Source of the DNA: a virus
DNA length: 26,357 bases
Virus record (IMG/VR): IMGVR_UViG_3300034375_001979
Coordinates: 1 to 26,357 of that record
Reading direction: 5' to 3' (one strand)
The translations under genes and the position numbers were made by a program. Positions 2,977-26,357 of this stretch are shown one piece after another. Below the pieces are notes generated by a model. It worked only from the letters and a program-made list of their open reading frames with translations, was not told the origin of the DNA and did not search any database. The first letter of the stretch is position 1. Each line of letters starts with the position of its first letter.

Positions 2977-3006
2977 AACAATACATCAATACGAAAAGGA
3001 AAACTT

Positions 3007-3195
3007 ATGAGATGTATTGCTTGTGATAGACAACTATCAGATTTTGAATCGACTAGGAAGTCTGCTACTACTGGTGAATATGTAGACCTATGTAATACTT
3101 GTTTTCAAAGTATACAAAGAGAATTAAATGCAGATGAACGTGAAGATTTAAGAGGTGATGTTGATGAGTTTGATGAAGTAGAGGAAGGGGAGTAA
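3007..3195 (+). CDS. Small four-cysteine zinc-binding protein
   Basis: 62 codons with AAAGGAAAA upstream (2995-3003). Two CxxC knuckles (CIAC at residues 3-6, CNTC at 29-32) are separated by a short polar stretch, the layout of a treble-clef or zinc-ribbon finger. The tail from about residue 40 is almost entirely acidic. Similar small zinc-finger proteins are common in phages, often as regulators or adaptors, but the role is unknown. The stop codon lies in the loop of the hairpin at 3183-3205, and the pqqA-like gene runs toward it on the other strand. Confidence 0.75.
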   Translation: MRCIACDRQLSDFESTRKSATTGEYVDLCNTCFQSIQRELNADEREDLRGDVDEFDEVEEGE

Positions 3196-3205
3196 TCCCC
3201 TTTCC
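3183..3205. terminator. Shared hairpin terminator between convergent genes
   Basis: GGAAGGGGA (3183-3191) pairs with TCCCCTTTCC (3196-3205), one bulged base, around the loop GTAA that contains the upstream gene's stop codon. It is the most G/C-rich stem in the neighbourhood. The plus side is followed by a T-rich stretch (TTATTTGTT), so it could work as an intrinsic terminator for the rightward gene. It begins right after the stop of the leftward pqqA-like gene, so it may protect or end both transcripts. Confidence 0.65.
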
Positions 3206-3277
3206 TTATTTGTTCATTACGTACATTGTAACTTCAAAACCAAAACGCATTTCAGTAGCTGATGGAGTTGTCCACAT
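3206..3277 (-). CDS. pqqA: PqqA-like pyrroloquinoline quinone precursor peptide
   Basis: A 23-residue reading frame on the minus strand. The peptide begins MWTTPSATEM and its second half contains RFGFEVTMY, which matches the conserved core of bacterial PqqA. Glu15 and Tyr19 sit at exactly the positions that PqqE crosslinks in classical 23-24 residue PqqA peptides to make the cofactor PQQ. AAAGGAA (3286-3292, minus strand) is a good ribosome-binding site 8 bases from the ATG, and an extended -10 promoter lies further upstream. It points against all neighbouring replication genes and ends at a hairpin. No pqqB, C, D or E is present, so the peptide would need host enzymes; it may raise the supply of precursor during infection. 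Family assignment is from sequence; the phage role is inference. Confidence 0.88.
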   Translation of the reverse strand: MWTTPSATEMRFGFEVTMYVMNK

Positions 3278-3330
3278 AGTATAGTTCCTTTCGTTTAGAT
3301 TAATAAAATAAATTTTCATTCTATATGTAT

Positions 3331-3339
3331 ATTATATCA
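3331..3339 (-). promoter_or_regulatory. Extended -10 promoter for the pqqA-like gene
   Basis: On the minus strand the bases read TG-A-TATAAT: a perfect -10 hexamer with the upstream TG of an extended -10 promoter, which can work without a strong -35 box. None is seen. Transcription would begin near 3324, giving a leader of about 45 bases before the ATG at 3277. The stretch 3278-3392 otherwise holds only the ribosome-binding sites of the two flanking genes and very AT-rich DNA that may also carry a rightward promoter for the replication genes. Confidence 0.6.
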
Positions 3340-3392: not shown

Positions 3393-4082
3393 ATGAGTCA
3401 GTTTCTAGGACATAACCCTTGCCCTAAGTGTGGCAGTAAAGATAACCTAGCAGAGTATACTAACAATTACTATTGCTTTGGTTGCGGTTATAATAAAATT
3501 AAAAATGATCTTAATTCCCTACGTCAACGTTTCAATAATAAACCTATAATTAAAGAGTTTGAAATGATTACTACCATCAAAGATATTCCACAAAAAGCTA
3601 TGAAATGGTTGCTAAAATACGACATCTCCAGCGAAGATGCAATAAAATACAAAATGGAATGGTCTCCATTACATAAAGTTTTAGTACTTATTCGTAGTAG
3701 AAACTACTGGCAAGGACGTAACTTTTCTGATGGAGCTAAATACAAATCACAAGGACAAAAACCTATTATAGTTTATGGCAAAGGAGATAAGATTGTACTT
3801 GTTGAAGATGTACTCTCTGCAATTAAAGTTGCTCGACTACGTTACGAAGGCTACTGTGCTATCCCTTTATTAGGATCAACAGTTTCTACTGAGTTAGAAC
3901 AAAAGTTGACAGCTTCAAAAAAACCTGTTACAATATGGTTAGATCGTGATAAAGCTAAACAAGCAATTAAGATTAAGAATAATTTAAAAGCAAAAAGCAT
4001 CGCTGCGAGTGTAGTTATAACTGCAGCAGATCCAAAAGAATATAGTAAAGGAGAGATTTTAAAATGGTTGAAAAACAAATAG
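3393..4082 (+). CDS. DNA primase (zinc ribbon plus TOPRIM), T7 gp4 N-half type
   Basis: 229 codons from the ATG with AAGGAGA 5-6 bases upstream; the frame is open 33 bases earlier but without such a site. Cys10, Cys13, Cys28 and Cys31 form the zinc ribbon that recognises the priming site. The TOPRIM fold follows, with Glu138 (VLVEDVLSAI) and the acidic pair Asp184/Asp186 (IWLDRDKA) that bind Mg2+ for primer synthesis. This corresponds to the N-terminal half of T7 gp4, whose helicase half is here the separate next gene, overlapping by 19 bases in another frame. The two products presumably act together at the fork. Confidence 0.9.
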   Translation: MSQFLGHNPCPKCGSKDNLAEYTNNYYCFGCGYNKIKNDLNSLRQRFNNKPIIKEFEMITTIKDIPQKAMKWLLKYDISSEDAIKYKMEWSPLHKVLVLIRSRNYWQGRNFSDGAKYKSQGQKPIIVYGKGDKIVLVEDVLSAIKVARLRYEGYCAIPLLGSTVSTELEQKLTASKKPVTIWLDRDKAKQAIKIKNNLKAKSIAASVVITAADPKEYSKGEILKWLKNK

Positions 4083-5305: not shown

Positions 5306-5435
5306 TAAAGCTAAAAAAGTTTGCAATAAGTGTGGACAATCTGCAAAAGTATGGTATAATAATAAGTGGTGGTGTACAGCAGGAAGCCATCCAGGTGAGT
5401 TTAATATAATAGGATTATGTAAGGAGAAAAAATGA
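5292..5435 (+). CDS. Tiny zinc-finger protein between helicase and polymerase
   Basis: 47 codons, overlapping the helicase 3' end by 14 bases and sharing ATGA with the polymerase start. Cys11 and Cys14 (CNKC) followed by Cys28, His33 and Cys43 could bind zinc; the centre is aromatic (VWYNNKWWC). Codons match the neighbours. The tight overlaps at both ends argue for a true gene. Function unknown; similar small zinc proteins often lie in phage replication operons. Confidence 0.6.
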   Translation: MQKYDKAKKVCNKCGQSAKVWYNNKWWCTAGSHPGEFNIIGLCKEKK

Positions 5436-6607
5436 ACTACACAATTATTGATGTTGAAACTACAATAAGTAATAAAGGTAATCCGTTTGACCAAAACAAT
5501 AGCCTTTGTTTAGTAGGTACTACATCAACTCCTTACAATAACTCACCACAATCAATTTATATAATTGAGTTTGATGCACAACCTTACAAGAACAATCTGG
5601 AGAATCTTCAACTCTCCTTAGATTCAACGGATATTCTTGTAGGGTTTAACATCAAGTTTGATTTACACTGGCTACGTAAATATGGTATACGTTTTAATAA
5701 GAAACGGATATGGGATTGTCAACTTGTACACTTCATTCTTACAGGACAAAACAAACCCTACCCTAGTCTAAATGAAGTAGCAGAACATTATGGTATAGAA
5801 CAAAAACTTGACACAGTAAAAGAAGAATACTGGAACAATGGTATTAACACACCTAACATACCTAAAGATATATTGTTTGACTATCTTAGACAAGACCTTA
5901 TTGTTACAGAACAAGTCTATCGTAAACAAATAGAAGACTTACATAAACAACCACATCTCTTACGACTAATTAGTTTACATAATCAAGACTTACTTGTATT
6001 AGAAGAAATGGAATTTAATGGTATAACTTATGACTACAACTGGAGTGAGGTACTCGCTAATGAACTTGAAGAACAAATTGGAAAACTTGATAGAAGACTT
6101 TATAAGCACCATAATCATCCTGATTTCAATCCCTCTAGTAATGAGCATCTTTCTGCTCTCATTTATGGTGGAGACATTAAATACCGCGAACAGGTGGAGA
6201 TTGGAGTATATAAAACAGGTCTTAAAAAAGGACAAATCAAATACAAATGGGAAGAAAAAACTTTAGTACTACCTAGATTATGTACACCTTTACCTAAATC
6301 AGAACTAGCTAAAGAAGGTTACTACTCTACAGACGAGAGTACTCTTAAACAATTAAAGTTACCTACTAACGATGCTAAAGAAATACTTAGCTTGTTACAA
6401 ACTAGAGCAACGTTAGACAAAAGATTGACAACTTACTATAGAGGTTTAAACAAACTTGTTGATGAACAGAACTGGAGAAAAGGAGTATTACATGGTCAAC
6501 TCAATCAATGTGTAGCACGTACAGGGAGACTATCCAGTAGTAAACCTAATCTACAAAACTTTGATGGAGAAATTAAATCATTATTTAAAACTAGATATGG
6601 AGAATAG
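5432..6607 (+). CDS. polA: DNA polymerase A, N-terminal part (3'-5' exonuclease and thumb)
   Basis: 391 codons with AAGGAGA 6 bases before the ATG. Residues 1-170 are a DnaQ/DEDDy proofreading domain: Asp7-Val-Glu9, Asp77 (GFNIKFD), Tyr151/Asp155 (YLRQD). The rest is thumb and early palm, ending with ARTGRLSSSKPNLQNF, the conserved template-contact motif just ahead of motif A. It stops at '...SLFKTRYGE', where intact family A polymerases run on into the motif A strand. Motifs A, B and C lie in the gene at 6892, so this product cannot polymerise alone; the two chains probably assemble. See the 94-codon gene between them. Confidence 0.9.
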   Translation: MNYTIIDVETTISNKGNPFDQNNSLCLVGTTSTPYNNSPQSIYIIEFDAQPYKNNLENLQLSLDSTDILVGFNIKFDLHWLRKYGIRFNKKRIWDCQLVHFILTGQNKPYPSLNEVAEHYGIEQKLDTVKEEYWNNGINTPNIPKDILFDYLRQDLIVTEQVYRKQIEDLHKQPHLLRLISLHNQDLLVLEEMEFNGITYDYNWSEVLANELEEQIGKLDRRLYKHHNHPDFNPSSNEHLSALIYGGDIKYREQVEIGVYKTGLKKGQIKYKWEEKTLVLPRLCTPLPKSELAKEGYYSTDESTLKQLKLPTNDAKEILSLLQTRATLDKRLTTYYRGLNKLVDEQNWRKGVLHGQLNQCVARTGRLSSSKPNLQNFDGEIKSLFKTRYGE

Positions 6608-6892
6608 ATGAACAATAAAGAACTACGTACAAGAAACACCCATATTGTAATAGCAATTGTAGCATTTTTCACCACGTTAATCTTTGGAATCTGGCTTAAT
6701 TACGATGCCAAGATTGAAATTGTAGATATACGAGGTGATGAGGAAGTTATAATTCAACCGATCCCTACCGCTCAAACAGAATTTTATGTAGGCATTGAAG
6801 AAGAACTTCCAGAGGTAGTCGGATATAACGAAAAAGTTATATCCGATTTACCACCTTTAATGCAAGAGGAAGCTGACTTAGGAGACCTCTAA
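6608..6892 (+). CDS. Small single-pass membrane protein inserted in the polymerase
   Basis: 94 codons, starting directly after the polymerase stop (TAGATG) with GGAG at 6599-6602. Residues 1-11 are basic, about 12-30 form a hydrophobic membrane segment (IVIAIVAFFTTLIFGIW), and the remaining 60 residues are strongly acidic and would lie outside the inner membrane. No homing-endonuclease, intein or splicing motif is seen. Codons use more C and G (ACC, CCG, GCC) than the polymerase parts, hinting at a separate origin. Its 3' half contains an 11-base-pair perfect inverted repeat. Function unknown. Confidence 0.75.
   Translation: MNNKELRTRNTHIVIAIVAFFTTLIFGIWLNYDAKIEIVDIRGDEEVIIQPIPTAQTEFYVGIEEELPEVVGYNEKVISDLPPLMQEEADLGDL
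6817..6848. repeat. Strong inverted repeat inside the inserted gene
   Basis: TCGGATATAAC (6819-6829) and GTTATATCCGA (6836-6846) are perfect complements around GAAAAA; one wobble and one more A-T pair extend the stem. It lies about 45 bases before the start of the polymerase C-terminal gene. A short T-rich stretch follows (TTTA). It could pause or end transcription, process the message, or mark a past insertion. Confidence 0.75.
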
Positions 6893-7620
6893 TGTTATTA
6901 CAAGCAGATGCAAAACAACTTGAATGGGTAGGTGCTGCCTATCTATCTCAAGATAAATTAGCCATAGATGAGATATGGAAAGGTACAGACATGCACTCAG
7001 ACAACCAAGAACGTTTTGGTTTACCAAGTCGTTTGATTGCTAAGACCTTTGTATTCCGCCTTATCTATGGAGGCTCTGCTTATAGCTATGCTAACGATCC
7101 TAACTTTAAAGACGTAGGTAATGAAGACTACTGGCAAAAGATTATTAATGAGTTTTATAACAAATACAAACAACTACAAGTTTGGCATGATGAGTTAGTT
7201 TTTCGTGCTAAACGAGATGGTAAATTAATTATGCCTACAGGTAGAACTTATTACTACGAACCAGAAGTAACTAAGTATGGAAAAGTTAAGTACCCTCGTA
7301 CAAGAATACTAAATTATCCTGTGCAGGGATTAGGTGCAGACCTAATGGCTATTGCACGAGTATCATTATACAATAGACTTAAAGACAAGGAAGGAATTAT
7401 AATGGTTAATACTGTACATGATTCTATAATACTTGACTTTAATCCTAAAGTGTGGGATAATATAAGTATAGTGAACATTGTTGATAAATGTTTTAATGAT
7501 GTTCCTAAGAACTTTGAAAAGTTATTCAAAGTTAAGTTTAACCTTCCAATGAGAGTCGAGTGTCAAGTAGGTTCTGATTGGAAAAACATGGAGATAGTCA
7601 ATGCAAATTACAGTAATTGA
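6892..7620 (+). CDS. polA: DNA polymerase A, C-terminal part (catalytic palm and fingers)
   Basis: 242 codons; the ATG overlaps the previous TAA (TAATG), with AGGAG at 6879-6883. It begins exactly at motif A: Asp6 in LLQADAKQLEW. Motif B (O-helix) is Arg47, Lys51, Phe55, Tyr59-Gly60, so the residue equivalent to E. coli position 762 is Phe. NYPVQGLGADLM (141-152) and motif C TVHDSIIL (Asp177; the usual Glu is Ser) follow. All catalytic residues needed with the N-terminal chain are present, so the split enzyme looks functional rather than decayed. The end overlaps the SSB gene by 20 bases. Confidence 0.9.
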   Translation: MLLQADAKQLEWVGAAYLSQDKLAIDEIWKGTDMHSDNQERFGLPSRLIAKTFVFRLIYGGSAYSYANDPNFKDVGNEDYWQKIINEFYNKYKQLQVWHDELVFRAKRDGKLIMPTGRTYYYEPEVTKYGKVKYPRTRILNYPVQGLGADLMAIARVSLYNRLKDKEGIIMVNTVHDSIILDFNPKVWDNISIVNIVDKCFNDVPKNFEKLFKVKFNLPMRVECQVGSDWKNMEIVNANYSN

Positions 7621-10151: not shown

Positions 10152-10343
10152 ATGGCACTTACATTTCCTGAAGTATGTGAAGAATTAAAAAAGTTAGATG
10201 AACAATCTTTACTTGAGTTGCTTGAAATTACTTCAGATGAAATTGTAAATAAGTTTGAAGATAAAATAGAAGACAATTTAGAACATCTTACATTACTAAT
10301 AGACGATAATAAAGAAGAAGGACTATACGAATATGACGATTGA
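10152..10343 (+). CDS. Small acidic helical phage protein, unknown
   Basis: 63 codons, 4 bases after the DUF3310 stop. Start MALTFPEVCEELKKLDEQSLLELLEI followed by acidic helix. I have an impression of similar short proteins beside phage nucleotide genes but no function to offer. It overlaps the reductase start by 11 bases, so translation is probably coupled to it. Confidence 0.65.
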   Translation: MALTFPEVCEELKKLDEQSLLELLEITSDEIVNKFEDKIEDNLEHLTLLIDDNKEEGLYEYDD

Positions 10344-12213
10344 ATTACCTACTGTATACCAACAAGTTATTGCTTCATCAAGGTATGCTAGATTTATACC
10401 AGAAGCACACAGACGTGAAACTTGGGAAGAGACAGTTAACAGATTAGTTACTTATCTTGAGACTAAAGTACCTAGTCTTAAAGAAGAACTAAAAGAAATA
10501 CATAAGGCTGTACTAAATTTAGAAGTTATGCCTTCTATGAGATTATTAATGACAGCAGGAGAAGCCTGTGAGAGAGATAATATTAGTGCTTATAACTGTT
10601 CATACTTGGCAGTTAATAATAAACGAGCCTTTAGTGAGGCACTCTACATTCTTATGAATGGTACGGGTGTAGGCTTTAGTTGTGAACGTCAGGAAATTAC
10701 ACACTTACCTGTAATTCCTAATGACATTAAAGAGTGTGAAGATGTCATCGTAGTAGGTGACAGTAAACTAGGATGGGCAAAAGCCTTCAAGAAACTCTTA
10801 TCTAGCCTATGGGAAGGAGACATTCCTACCATAGATTATTCTCAAGTACGACCAGCAGGAGCTAGGTTAAAAACCTTTGGTGGTAGAGCTTCAGGACCAG
10901 CACCTCTTAAACGTTTATTTGACTTTGTTGTAGAAACGTTTCATGAGGCTAAAGGTAGAAAACTAACCTCTATTGAAGTACATGATATTATGTGTATGAT
11001 CGGTGAGATTGTTGTTGTTGGTGGTGTTAGACGTAGTGCTTTGATTTCACTATCTAATCTAACAGACAAACGTATGAGAGATGCTAAAATAGGAGCTTGG
11101 TGGGCTGACTATGCCCATCGTGGTTTAGCTAACAATAGTGTAGCTTACACAGAAAAACCAGATGTAGAAACTTTTATGGAAGAATGGTTATCCTTAGTTA
11201 AATCTAAGTCTGGTGAACGTGGTATCTTTAACAGAGTTGCTGCACAAAAACAAGCAGCTAAATGGGGTAGACGTAATAACTCTTTAAACTACGGGACAAA
11301 CCCCTGCTCGGAAATAATCTTACGTGATAAACAATTCTGTAATCTTTCAGAAGTTGTTATTCGTGCTGATGACACAGAGAAAACGTTACAAAATAAAGTA
11401 CGTATTGCTACTATATTAGGTACAATACAATCTACACTTTCTAACTTTAAATTTCTTTCTCATGAATGGCAAACTAATACTGAAGAAGAAAGACTGTTAG
11501 GAGTTTCATTAACTGGGATTATGGATGCAAAAATTACATCTAATCCTGATCCTAAAATGTTAGAAAGGTTAAGGGATGAAGCTAGAAAAACAAATAAAAC
11601 GTACGCAGAAATACTTGGAATACCGTCGTCAGCAAGTATTACGTGTGTTAAACCGAGTGGTACTGTTAGCCAGCTTGTTGATGCTGCTAGCGGGATTCAT
11701 GCTCGTCACAACGACTACTACATACGTAGGATCAGAATGGATAAAAAAGATCCTATCTACGATTTTTTAAAAGATAAAGGTGTATATGTTGAAGACGAAG
11801 TACATCGTCCAGATAGTACTGCTGTATTTAGCTTTCCTATGAAAGCACCTAAACAAGCTATCTTACGTAATGATTGGTCTGCTCTAACTCAATTAGAAAA
11901 CTGGTTAATATATCAACGTCACTGGTGTGAACATAAACCTAGTGTTACTATCTCAGTTAAAGATGAAGAGTGGGTAGACGTAGGAGCATGGGTATGGAAA
12001 CACTTTGATGAGATTAGTGGTGTATCTTTCCTACCTCATAGTGACCATACATACCAACAAGCTCCTTATGAAGATTGTACTAAAGAAGTATATAACTCTT
12101 TACTTAAAAATACTCCAAAGTATATAGATTGGACATCCTTTATTGAAGAAGACGATAATACTATTGGACAACAAACTTTAGCCTGTACAGGAGGTACTTG
12201 TGAGATAATATGA
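10333..12213 (+). CDS. nrdJ: Class II (B12-dependent) ribonucleotide reductase, monomeric type
   Basis: 626 codons. Closest in pattern to the monomeric adenosylcobalamin-dependent ribonucleoside-triphosphate reductase of Lactobacillus leichmannii (739 residues), but shorter. The active site is complete: Cys89 (AYNCSYLAV) and Cys336 (FCNLSEV) as the reducing pair, and NPCSE with Asn323, radical Cys325 and Glu327. GTGVGFSCERQ (110-120) and the C-terminal relay cysteines Cys618 and Cys623 (ACTGGTCEII) are present. It turns ribonucleotides into deoxynucleotides for phage DNA and needs host cobalamin but no oxygen and no small subunit. No intein is seen. The small frame with a membrane segment at 11576-11770 is a shadow inside it. 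Confidence 0.93.
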   Translation: MTIELPTVYQQVIASSRYARFIPEAHRRETWEETVNRLVTYLETKVPSLKEELKEIHKAVLNLEVMPSMRLLMTAGEACERDNISAYNCSYLAVNNKRAFSEALYILMNGTGVGFSCERQEITHLPVIPNDIKECEDVIVVGDSKLGWAKAFKKLLSSLWEGDIPTIDYSQVRPAGARLKTFGGRASGPAPLKRLFDFVVETFHEAKGRKLTSIEVHDIMCMIGEIVVVGGVRRSALISLSNLTDKRMRDAKIGAWWADYAHRGLANNSVAYTEKPDVETFMEEWLSLVKSKSGERGIFNRVAAQKQAAKWGRRNNSLNYGTNPCSEIILRDKQFCNLSEVVIRADDTEKTLQNKVRIATILGTIQSTLSNFKFLSHEWQTNTEEERLLGVSLTGIMDAKITSNPDPKMLERLRDEARKTNKTYAEILGIPSSASITCVKPSGTVSQLVDAASGIHARHNDYYIRRIRMDKKDPIYDFLKDKGVYVEDEVHRPDSTAVFSFPMKAPKQAILRNDWSALTQLENWLIYQRHWCEHKPSVTISVKDEEWVDVGAWVWKHFDEISGVSFLPHSDHTYQQAPYEDCTKEVYNSLLKNTPKYIDWTSFIEEDDNTIGQQTLACTGGTCEII

Positions 12214-24125: not shown

Positions 24126-26357
24126 TTAAAAACTAGGTCCATGAACTAGTTGTCTAACATTATATGAAGAATATAAATTTCCTGTTCCACTCACCGTTAC
24201 TGTTATTGCTCCATTGACTCCAGTTGATATACTAATACTAGGAGCTGAGCTAGTTAAAGTTTTTGCAATATCTGAAACTAGATTATATGTAGAGGACCAA
24301 TTACTGTAAGGATATCCAGATAAACCAGCAAAATGATATACTTGATAACGAGTACCATAAGCACCAGAACTATTTCTAGCCGCATAAATAGAGACTTCAA
24401 ATATACCATAACTAGATGGTAATGTTATTGTATAACTACTACCCGCATTTTCATTATAATTTGCATCGGTAGATAAAAAAGAACCTGTTGCAGTGCTAAG
24501 ATTTTTTGCTGAATCTATTGTAAAACCAAGTGCTGGAACTCTAAGTGTTGTAACATTTGCATCACCTAGTGTAATCTCGTTAGAGACTGTAGCAGAGGAA
24601 GGTTGTGCATTTTTACCTAAGCAAGTATTATTGTTTCCTGTGGTAATACTGCTTCCAGCGTCCCACCCAATAGCTGTGTTGTAGTTTCCTGTTGTGTTGC
24701 CAAAAAGAGCTCTGCGACCTAGACCAACGTTGTAAGAACCAGTGGTGTTTAATGCACCAGCTCCAGCACCAAGAAATGTTAATGAACTTCCTGTTGTGTT
24801 ACTATTACCACAAGCATATCCAACACCAGCTTCACGAGGTCCTACAAATGTATTTTCAGTACCTGAGGTATTATTTTGCCCAGCAGCAAATCCTACAGCA
24901 CAATTATCGAGAGCCGTATTATCAAACAACGCTTTATAACCCACTGCGGTATTGTTAGATGCAGTGGTGTTGGAGTAGAGAGAATCATTGCCTAATGCGG
25001 TGTTATAACCACCAGTAGTGTTTAATCGTAATGCACCTAACCCAACAGCAGTATTTCTAGTCCCAGTAGTATTAGAAAGAAGAGCTGAATGCCCTACAGC
25101 AGTAAAATATCCTCCAGATGTATTTGATAGTCCAGCCTGATATCCTATAGCTGTAGCTCCAGCCGAAACATTATTATACAAAGATTGGTAACCAACCGCT
25201 GTGTTATTAGTTGCAGTGGTGTTCAAAGCCAAAGCTCCTTGACCAACAGCAGTGTTATTACTACCTGATGTATTAGATGTTAATGCACTTTCGCCTAAAC
25301 CAGTATTTCTGCTTCCTATTGTATTATCATCAAGTGCTGACTTTCCAAAAGCGGCATTTGACACACCAGTTGTATTATCATATAGTGCCTGATAACCGAC
25401 AGCTGTATTGTTAGTTGCAGTGGTGTTGTTGCGTAAGGATTCAAAGCCTAATCCTACATTATTAGAACCAGTAGTATTAATAAATAATCCACCATATCCT
25501 AATGCCACATTATTTGAGCCTGTAGTATTGCTATATAATGAACCCCAGCCAACCGCAGTATTTTGAGGTCCAGTAGTTGTTCCTCCTAGTGACAAATAAC
25601 CTACAGCAGTGTTGTTATTTGCAGTGGTGTTGGATGAGAGGGCAGAACGACCTACCGCTGTATTATATCCTCCAGTATTAGCAAATAATGCACTAACTCC
25701 AACGGCAACATTTTCTGTTCCTATTGTATTTGAATACAGTGAGAAAGCACCAACAGCTGTATTTGTAGCACCTGTAGAGTTACTAGCTAGTGCTTGATAC
25801 CCTATAGCAGTACTGTTACTAGCAGTAGAGTTGTTAAATAATGTTTGATAACCTACAGCTGTGTTTTGTGAACCAGTTGTATTGTTATTTAATGCAATAG
25901 TTCCTATAGCAATATTGGTTGCACCTGTCGTATTGTCAAATAAAGCTTGATAACCTATAGCTACATTGTTATTTGCGGTGGTGTTGTTAGCTAAAGATTG
26001 GTGACCTAATGCTACATTATTTGCTCCAGTAGTATTATCAAATAAAGCTTGAAACCCAACAGCAGTGTTGTAAGATGCGGTGGTATTGGCTAGAAGGGCA
26101 TCTCTACCAAAAGCATTATTAAACTGACCTGTAGTATTATTTAACAGAGCTTGGTAGCCTGTAGCAGTATTTGCTGCTCCAGCACCTGTATTGCTATATA
26201 ACGCTTTGTAACCTATAGCTGTTATTTGTATACCTGTTGTATTATTATAAGCAGCTTGATAACCAACTGCTGTGTTATAAGATGCAGTGGTGTTGTTGCG
26301 TAAGGATTCAAAGCCTAATCCTACATTATTAGAACCAGTAGTATTAATAAATAATCC
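24126..26357 (-). CDS. Repetitive tail-fibre / adhesin-like protein, 5' end beyond the window
   Basis: The frame is open from the window edge (last codon 26355-26357) to the TAA at 24126: at least 743 residues, with no start seen. The in-frame TTG at 25595 is internal to the repeats and is not the start. About 34 units of 17 residues follow the theme NTAVGYQALxxNTTGxx, like the beta-roll head repeats of trimeric autotransporters (YadA/Hep_Hag type). A linker (NEITLGDANVTTLRVPALG) and a roughly 150-residue beta-rich C-terminal domain, presumably the tip, follow. Repeats suggest a long trimeric shaft for host attachment. First of the visible leftward genes. Confidence 0.85.
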   Translation of the reverse strand, partial: GLFINTTGSNNVGLGFESLRNNTTASYNTAVGYQAAYNNTTGIQITAIGYKALYSNTGAGAANTATGYQALLNNTTGQFNNAFGRDALLANTTASYNTAVGFQALFDNTTGANNVALGHQSLANNTTANNNVAIGYQALFDNTTGATNIAIGTIALNNNTTGSQNTAVGYQTLFNNSTASNSTAIGYQALASNSTGATNTAVGAFSLYSNTIGTENVAVGVSALFANTGGYNTAVGRSALSSNTTANNNTAVGYLSLGGTTTGPQNTAVGWGSLYSNTTGSNNVALGYGGLFINTTGSNNVGLGFESLRNNTTATNNTAVGYQALYDNTTGVSNAAFGKSALDDNTIGSRNTGLGESALTSNTSGSNNTAVGQGALALNTTATNNTAVGYQSLYNNVSAGATAIGYQAGLSNTSGGYFTAVGHSALLSNTTGTRNTAVGLGALRLNTTGGYNTALGNDSLYSNTTASNNTAVGYKALFDNTALDNCAVGFAAGQNNTSGTENTFVGPREAGVGYACGNSNTTGSSLTFLGAGAGALNTTGSYNVGLGRRALFGNTTGNYNTAIGWDAGSSITTGNNNTCLGKNAQPSSATVSNEITLGDANVTTLRVPALGFTIDSAKNLSTATGSFLSTDANYNENAGSSYTITLPSSYGIFEVSIYAARNSSGAYGTRYQVYHFAGLSGYPYSNWSSTYNLVSDIAKTLTSSAPSISISTGVNGAITVTVSGTGNLYSSYNVRQLVHGPSF
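25416..25490. repeat. 75-base direct repeat, copy 1
   Basis: Identical base for base to 26283-26357. The distance between copies is 867 bases, exactly 17 units of 51, so the copies are in register within the fibre repeats. Confidence 0.95.
26283..26357. repeat. 75-base direct repeat, copy 2, at the window edge
   Basis: Exact copy of 25416-25490. The window stops at the end of this copy, which points to a break or collapse caused by the repeat rather than a natural genome end. Confidence 0.95.

Follow-up and report, generated by a model that had tools for sequence, protein, structure and literature searches.

Introduction

PqqA is the peptide from which bacteria make the redox cofactor PQQ. 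A 23-codon minus-strand frame resembling its gene lies in a 26,357-nucleotide stretch of viral DNA (IMG/VR record IMGVR_UViG_3300034375_001979, positions 1 to 26,357; here called the window), which raises the question whether a phage encodes a genuine PQQ precursor and what it would gain from doing so. A sequence-only reading had proposed that the phage supplies extra precursor so that host enzymes keep up PQQ-dependent oxidation during infection, and had left aside whether such a gene had been reported before.

Viral PqqA as a kind is not new, since it has been described in two settings. In 2020 the Lake Baikal methylophage contig VP_266 was reported to encode PqqA together with a viral methanol dehydrogenase (PMC7678222). 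Phage-encoded PqqA, a predicted Methylophilaceae host and the proposed role are common to VP_266 and the window, whereas VP_266 belongs to a T4-like freshwater phage with a methanol dehydrogenase and the window to a small phage of Zobellviridae type in which no other pqq gene was seen. Viral contigs from reservoir sediment likewise carry pqqA, listed with pqqD and pqqE among phosphorus-cycling auxiliary metabolic genes (AMGs) and read there as serving inorganic phosphate solubilisation, not methanol oxidation (PMC13188868). For cultured OM43 phages, the paper on MEP401 and MEP402 gives several AMGs and leaves PQQ unmentioned (PMC10580990), as do the Venkman and MEP301 papers, while the Melnitz paper names PQQ as a medium additive only. 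As far as the open-licence literature shows, what appears new is that pqqA occurs in every OM43/LD28 isolate examined and in more than a hundred viral contigs, is under strict selection, recurs in an antisense slot and has been missed by annotation.

Results and Discussion

The coordinates and the 23-residue sequence of the frame were reproduced exactly, and in profile searches the peptide clearly exceeded both curated cut-offs, with 41.3 bits against PF08042 (cut-off 21.1, E 1.4e-10) and 38.5 bits against the TIGR02107 equivalog (cut-off 20, E 6.9e-10). Residues 1-19 align with positions 1-19 of the former profile and residues 2-22 with positions 1-21 of the latter, and Trp2, Glu15 and Tyr19 stand in PqqA register, as had been claimed for the latter two. 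The E-x3-Y spacing of the PQQ-forming residues is present as E15/Y19, the two positions that are turned into PQQ in known PqqA. As the window contains 610 stop-to-stop segments of at least 20 residues, the probability of matching this well by chance is of the order of 1e-7, which excludes a chance match. The peptide shares length, register, Glu15/Tyr19, W2, P5 and R11 with bacterial PqqA (PF08042 / TIGR02107; Methylophilaceae orphans), but its gene is part of a phage genome, where it runs in antisense between replication genes of the phage (Table 1). Neither PHROGs v4 nor the solved structures contained a match for it.

Table 1. Features at and around pqqA in the window.
Feature	Position	Strand	Remarks
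62-aa CxxC...CxxC zinc-ribbon-like phage protein	3007..3195	+	left neighbour; weak phrog_10364 match, unknown function
Stem-loop and T-rich tail	3181..3207	+	between convergent gene ends; terminator-like on + strand only
pqqA	3206..3277	-	23 codons; peptide MWTTPSATEMRFGFEVTMYVMNK; stop TAA 3206-3208; PQQ precursor
Shine-Dalgarno AAAGGAA	3285..3291	-	7 nt before ATG of pqqA; sequence read
5'-leader stem-loop ATAGAATGAAAATTTATTTTAT	3303..3324	-	predicted; directly after presumed transcription start
Extended -10 TGATATAAT	3331..3339	-	presumed own promoter of pqqA; from sequence and leader alignment
DNA primase	3393..4082	+	right neighbour; phrog_47, E 9e-27; anchor of synteny test

The window is a phage of Zobellviridae type, its host probably being OM43/Methylophilaceae. 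Its replication module is MEP401-like, with a helicase 61% identical to that of MEP401 over the full length, and it possibly belongs to the "group II" phages of the MEP401/402 subfamily, whose groups I and II consist mostly of members predicted to infect OM43 (PMC10580990). MEP401 and MEP402 share the replication module with the window but carry pqqA at a different site, immediately ahead of a series of co-directional late genes. Since pqqA is flanked by phage replication genes in the window and also occurs in cultured phages, its setting is a real phage genome. Elsewhere in the window, a family A DNA polymerase is split over two frames (5432-6607 and 6892-7620, within 5432-7620), to which positions 49-132 and 154-380 of the DNA_pol_A profile map separately; the 94-aa ORF between the halves (6608-6892) is unrelated and has no family match. 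Further genes encode an ArdC-like antirestriction protein (2104-2961, ArdcN and zincin-like metallopeptidase domain), a phage ribonucleotide reductase matching the insertion domain of B12-dependent (class II) enzymes (10333-12213) and a long repetitive tail spike or virion structural protein with NTAVG-type repeats that runs past the window end (24126-26357).

Annotated phages were searched with the window pqqA by blastn and tblastn. The gene was found in every OM43/LD28 isolate examined, a set comprising all OM43 isolates named in PMC10580990 and the LD28 phage P19250A, with peptide identities to the window PqqA of 95.7% for P19250A and Venkman, 91% for MEP301, 83% for MEP401 and MEP402, and 73% for four Melnitz genomes. 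A podovirus from Manatee Spring encodes a PqqA 91% identical to that of the window. The isolates span unrelated groups, namely the T4-like Melnitz, the Zobellviridae MEP401/402, Venkman/P19250A and MEP301; connected-component clustering of the pqqA loci merged most of them, and "unrelated lineages" refers to the classified isolates. None of these phage records annotates pqqA, the place being either blank or occupied by an ORF called on the opposite strand (Melnitz, ctXG6705), which bears out the suspicion that standard gene callers miss the gene. The deposited "hypothetical protein" CDSs antisense over pqqA in Melnitz (3006-3101) and ctXG6705 (2996-3124) are probably spurious.

A scan of IMG/VR with a DNA pattern for GFEVTMY returned at least 120 matches, and each of the 126 GFEVTMY frames in the viral and phage loci listed is preceded by an ATG in frame and at the distance proper to PqqA. 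The gene is thus present in over a hundred viral contigs, a lower bound, as are the viral counts from both pattern scans (GFEVTMY and N-terminal). Five viral contigs (L010, L019, L024, L030 and L034) encode a different PqqA type, RLGFEVTMYFK, which suggests that pqqA also occurs in phages infecting other PQQ-using hosts. Among the matches listed, 90 of 166 viral loci have pqqA on the strand opposite to the long ORFs on either side, which fits an independently transcribed cassette. No viral locus contained pqqB, pqqC, pqqD or pqqE nearby, whereas many Methylophilaceae host loci show them. Host contamination was rejected, as cultured isolates carry the gene and viral loci are free of pqqB-E. One record labelled "Acinetobacter phage MD-2021a" (CAKLQF020000010.1) holds ppk and pqqBCDE, looks like a mislabelled bacterial chromosome and was set aside.

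As fixing GFEVTMY in the first scan made it circular for Glu and Tyr, conservation was retested with the N-terminal pattern. Glu15 and Tyr19 were kept, and stops were absent, in all 114 distinct viral copies among the matches listed. For selection, copies were anchored on the neighbouring primase, not on pqqA, yielding 34 distinct synteny-linked copies with a dN/dS of 0.072 overall and 0.128 outside the residues fixed by the expression that served to locate them. Synonymous sites are strongly diverged (pS 0.48, pN 0.05); it is the peptide, rather than the DNA, that selection conserves. The frame in the window is a genuine PqqA gene under selection.

The primase also allowed us to follow the slot through related phages. 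The set comprised the window and 80 relatives, 81 sequences with the primase in all. Of these, 50 have a minus-strand pqqA upstream of the primase, 21 lack it in a long-enough flank and 10 could not be judged, so that related phages do conserve this frame. With the profile match and the lack of substitutions at Glu15 or Tyr19, all three grounds on which the sequence-only reading would have been refuted were checked, and none applied. The same antisense slot is used even where the relatives' primases are only about 50% identical. The 62-aa CxxC...CxxC neighbour adjoins the primase both with and without pqqA, and close pairs such as L303 (with pqqA) and L318 (without) display the slot filled and empty, with the same gene on either side. 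Ten long records, possibly fragments, in which the slot held no complete copy were searched whole; nine have no pqqA anywhere and one has it elsewhere. On the primase tree its presence is clustered, yet it was gained, lost or moved several times. Since 21 of the 71 informative relatives lack the gene near the primase and nine of the ten long records lack it altogether, pqqA is not essential to this phage group.

Of the control elements described earlier, the good ribosome-binding site is there, and a Shine-Dalgarno-like motif occurs in 34 of 34 pqqA leaders of the primase-linked family. The extended -10 element is likewise present, and its TATAAT columns, about 55-60 nt upstream, rank with the most conserved positions when the family leaders are aligned. 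A consensus scanner, however, found no two-hexamer sigma-70 promoter at the pqqA leader, and -10-like hexamers, frequent in AT-rich DNA, occur in 74% of shuffled leaders, which limits the promoter argument to alignment conservation; the element is presumed to be pqqA's own promoter. Single-sequence folding of the leader hairpin gave a family mean z of -2.7 against shuffles, and RNAalifold on a MAFFT alignment of the leaders returned zero consensus pairs, so we only tentatively propose a conserved hairpin at the presumed 5' end. The hairpin at the end of the gene exists; as it scores as a terminator on the plus strand only, it more likely terminates the convergent neighbour than pqqA.

On the host side, all 12 Methylophilaceae genomes searched carry pqqA in 1-12 copies and 11 of the 12 have PqqE over the cut-off, the host of the window phage itself being inferred from its relatives. 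OM43 strain LSUCC0665, whose 1.3-Mb genome is complete, has three pqqA that are each separated from pqqE by over 100 kb; the region 868000-882000 of this streamlined genome contains two tandem copies with 200 bp between them, at a distance from the pqq operon. Methylophilaceae have been described to carry 3-12 pqqA and typically a single copy of the other pqq genes (PMC4109929). The orphan copies of OM43 hosts stand alone away from pqqBCDE, as the phage gene does. The window pqqA is 96% identical to one Methylophilaceae pqqA over 73 nt and 86-92% to other host copies over 85-106 nt, the similarity reaching into the leader and ribosome-binding region and stopping at the stop codon; four PqqA peptide sequences, including that of the window, are identical between virus and host. 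The simplest account would be that a host gene was captured along with its ribosome-binding region, and phage pqqA is best read, from these comparisons and the dN/dS, as a host-derived metabolic gene maintained by selection.

PqqA is a substrate spent one peptide per PQQ, while PqqB-E are catalytic. Since the precursor is consumed and the enzymes are catalytic and already there, a phage would need the precursor only. In the scheme that we consider likely, a selected pqqA supplies precursor from which host enzymes finish PQQ for the energy supply through XoxF. A phage that acquired pqqA from its methylotrophic Methylophilaceae hosts would make extra PqqA on infection, probably by way of a short transcription unit of its own. 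The peptide would be bound by PqqD/PqqE of the host and receive the cross-link between Glu15 and Tyr19, after which the host's PqqF/G, PqqB and PqqC would complete PQQ. Periplasmic enzymes that depend on PQQ would then be loaded with it; in OM43 the main one would be XoxF, the lanthanide methanol dehydrogenase. As a phage curtailing host expression would run short of consumable PqqA first, PqqA alone could be the minimal supply that keeps PQQ synthesis, and hence XoxF, running.

The originally proposed support of PQQ-dependent oxidation fits these hosts, which possess pqqE and several orphan pqqA, and xoxF invariably topped the transcripts of an OM43 isolate (PMC5120137); the purpose itself we infer. 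The multiplicity of host orphan pqqA parallels the precursor-only gene content of the phage. According to the citation of Ge et al. in PMC11317620, PqqA availability is rate-determining in Methylovorus, and work cited there reportedly found pqqA dispensable for PQQ in Methylobacterium extorquens AM1, with orphan copies not investigated. Since OM43 already has up to three pqqA, the benefit of one more copy is not obvious.

Other purposes for the peptide have to be weighed. PqqA or PQQ might serve a role outside energy supply, such as acquiring lanthanides or protecting the infected cell against oxidants; XoxF requires lanthanides, and PqqA has been proposed to take part in their uptake by M. 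extorquens (PMC11317620), but the phage peptides bear no feature that distinguishes them from host precursors, and with four sequences identical between virus and host we regard such a role as unlikely. Phage PqqA could also act as a decoy that occupies PqqD/PqqE or proteases and thereby lowers or redirects host PQQ synthesis. Abundant free substrate could in principle saturate PqqD/E, although we found no observation in support; a decoy could afford to lose Glu15 or Tyr19, both of which are invariant, and hosts multiply pqqA themselves, making this reading very improbable.

That the locus is a conserved RNA or DNA signal, a small RNA or attachment site overlapping a pqqA remnant, would agree with the predicted leader hairpin and with host similarity extending into the leader. 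The peptide is kept despite diverged synonymous sites, however, no Rfam match was obtained, and the locus lacks the fixed nucleotide core needed by an attachment site, with host similarity ending at the stop codon; we give this explanation very little credence. A neutral passenger or misassembled host DNA, conceivable for metagenomic IMG/VR records and given the Acinetobacter phage MD-2021a contig with pqqBCDE, is extremely improbable in view of the cultured phage genomes, the synteny across divergent primases, the purifying selection and the absence of viral pqqA adjoining pqqBCDE.

Conclusion

Supply of precursor to host enzymes is thus the reading that we prefer for phage pqqA. Whether a precursor without maturation enzymes is a general, convergent strategy in phages of PQQ-dependent methylotrophs, with PQQ supply to XoxF becoming limiting after host shutdown, appears to us evenly balanced. 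At 23 codons, the gene is short enough for standard annotation to have overlooked a candidate AMG found in all OM43/LD28 isolates examined. It also offers a clean test system, comprising one 72-base gene, host enzymes in trans and cultured phage-host pairs (MEP301, MEP401/402, Venkman, Melnitz). Bacteria of the OM43 type play an important part in coastal methanol oxidation, and the occurrence of pqqA in unrelated families of their phages suggests that cofactor supply is a bottleneck during infection.
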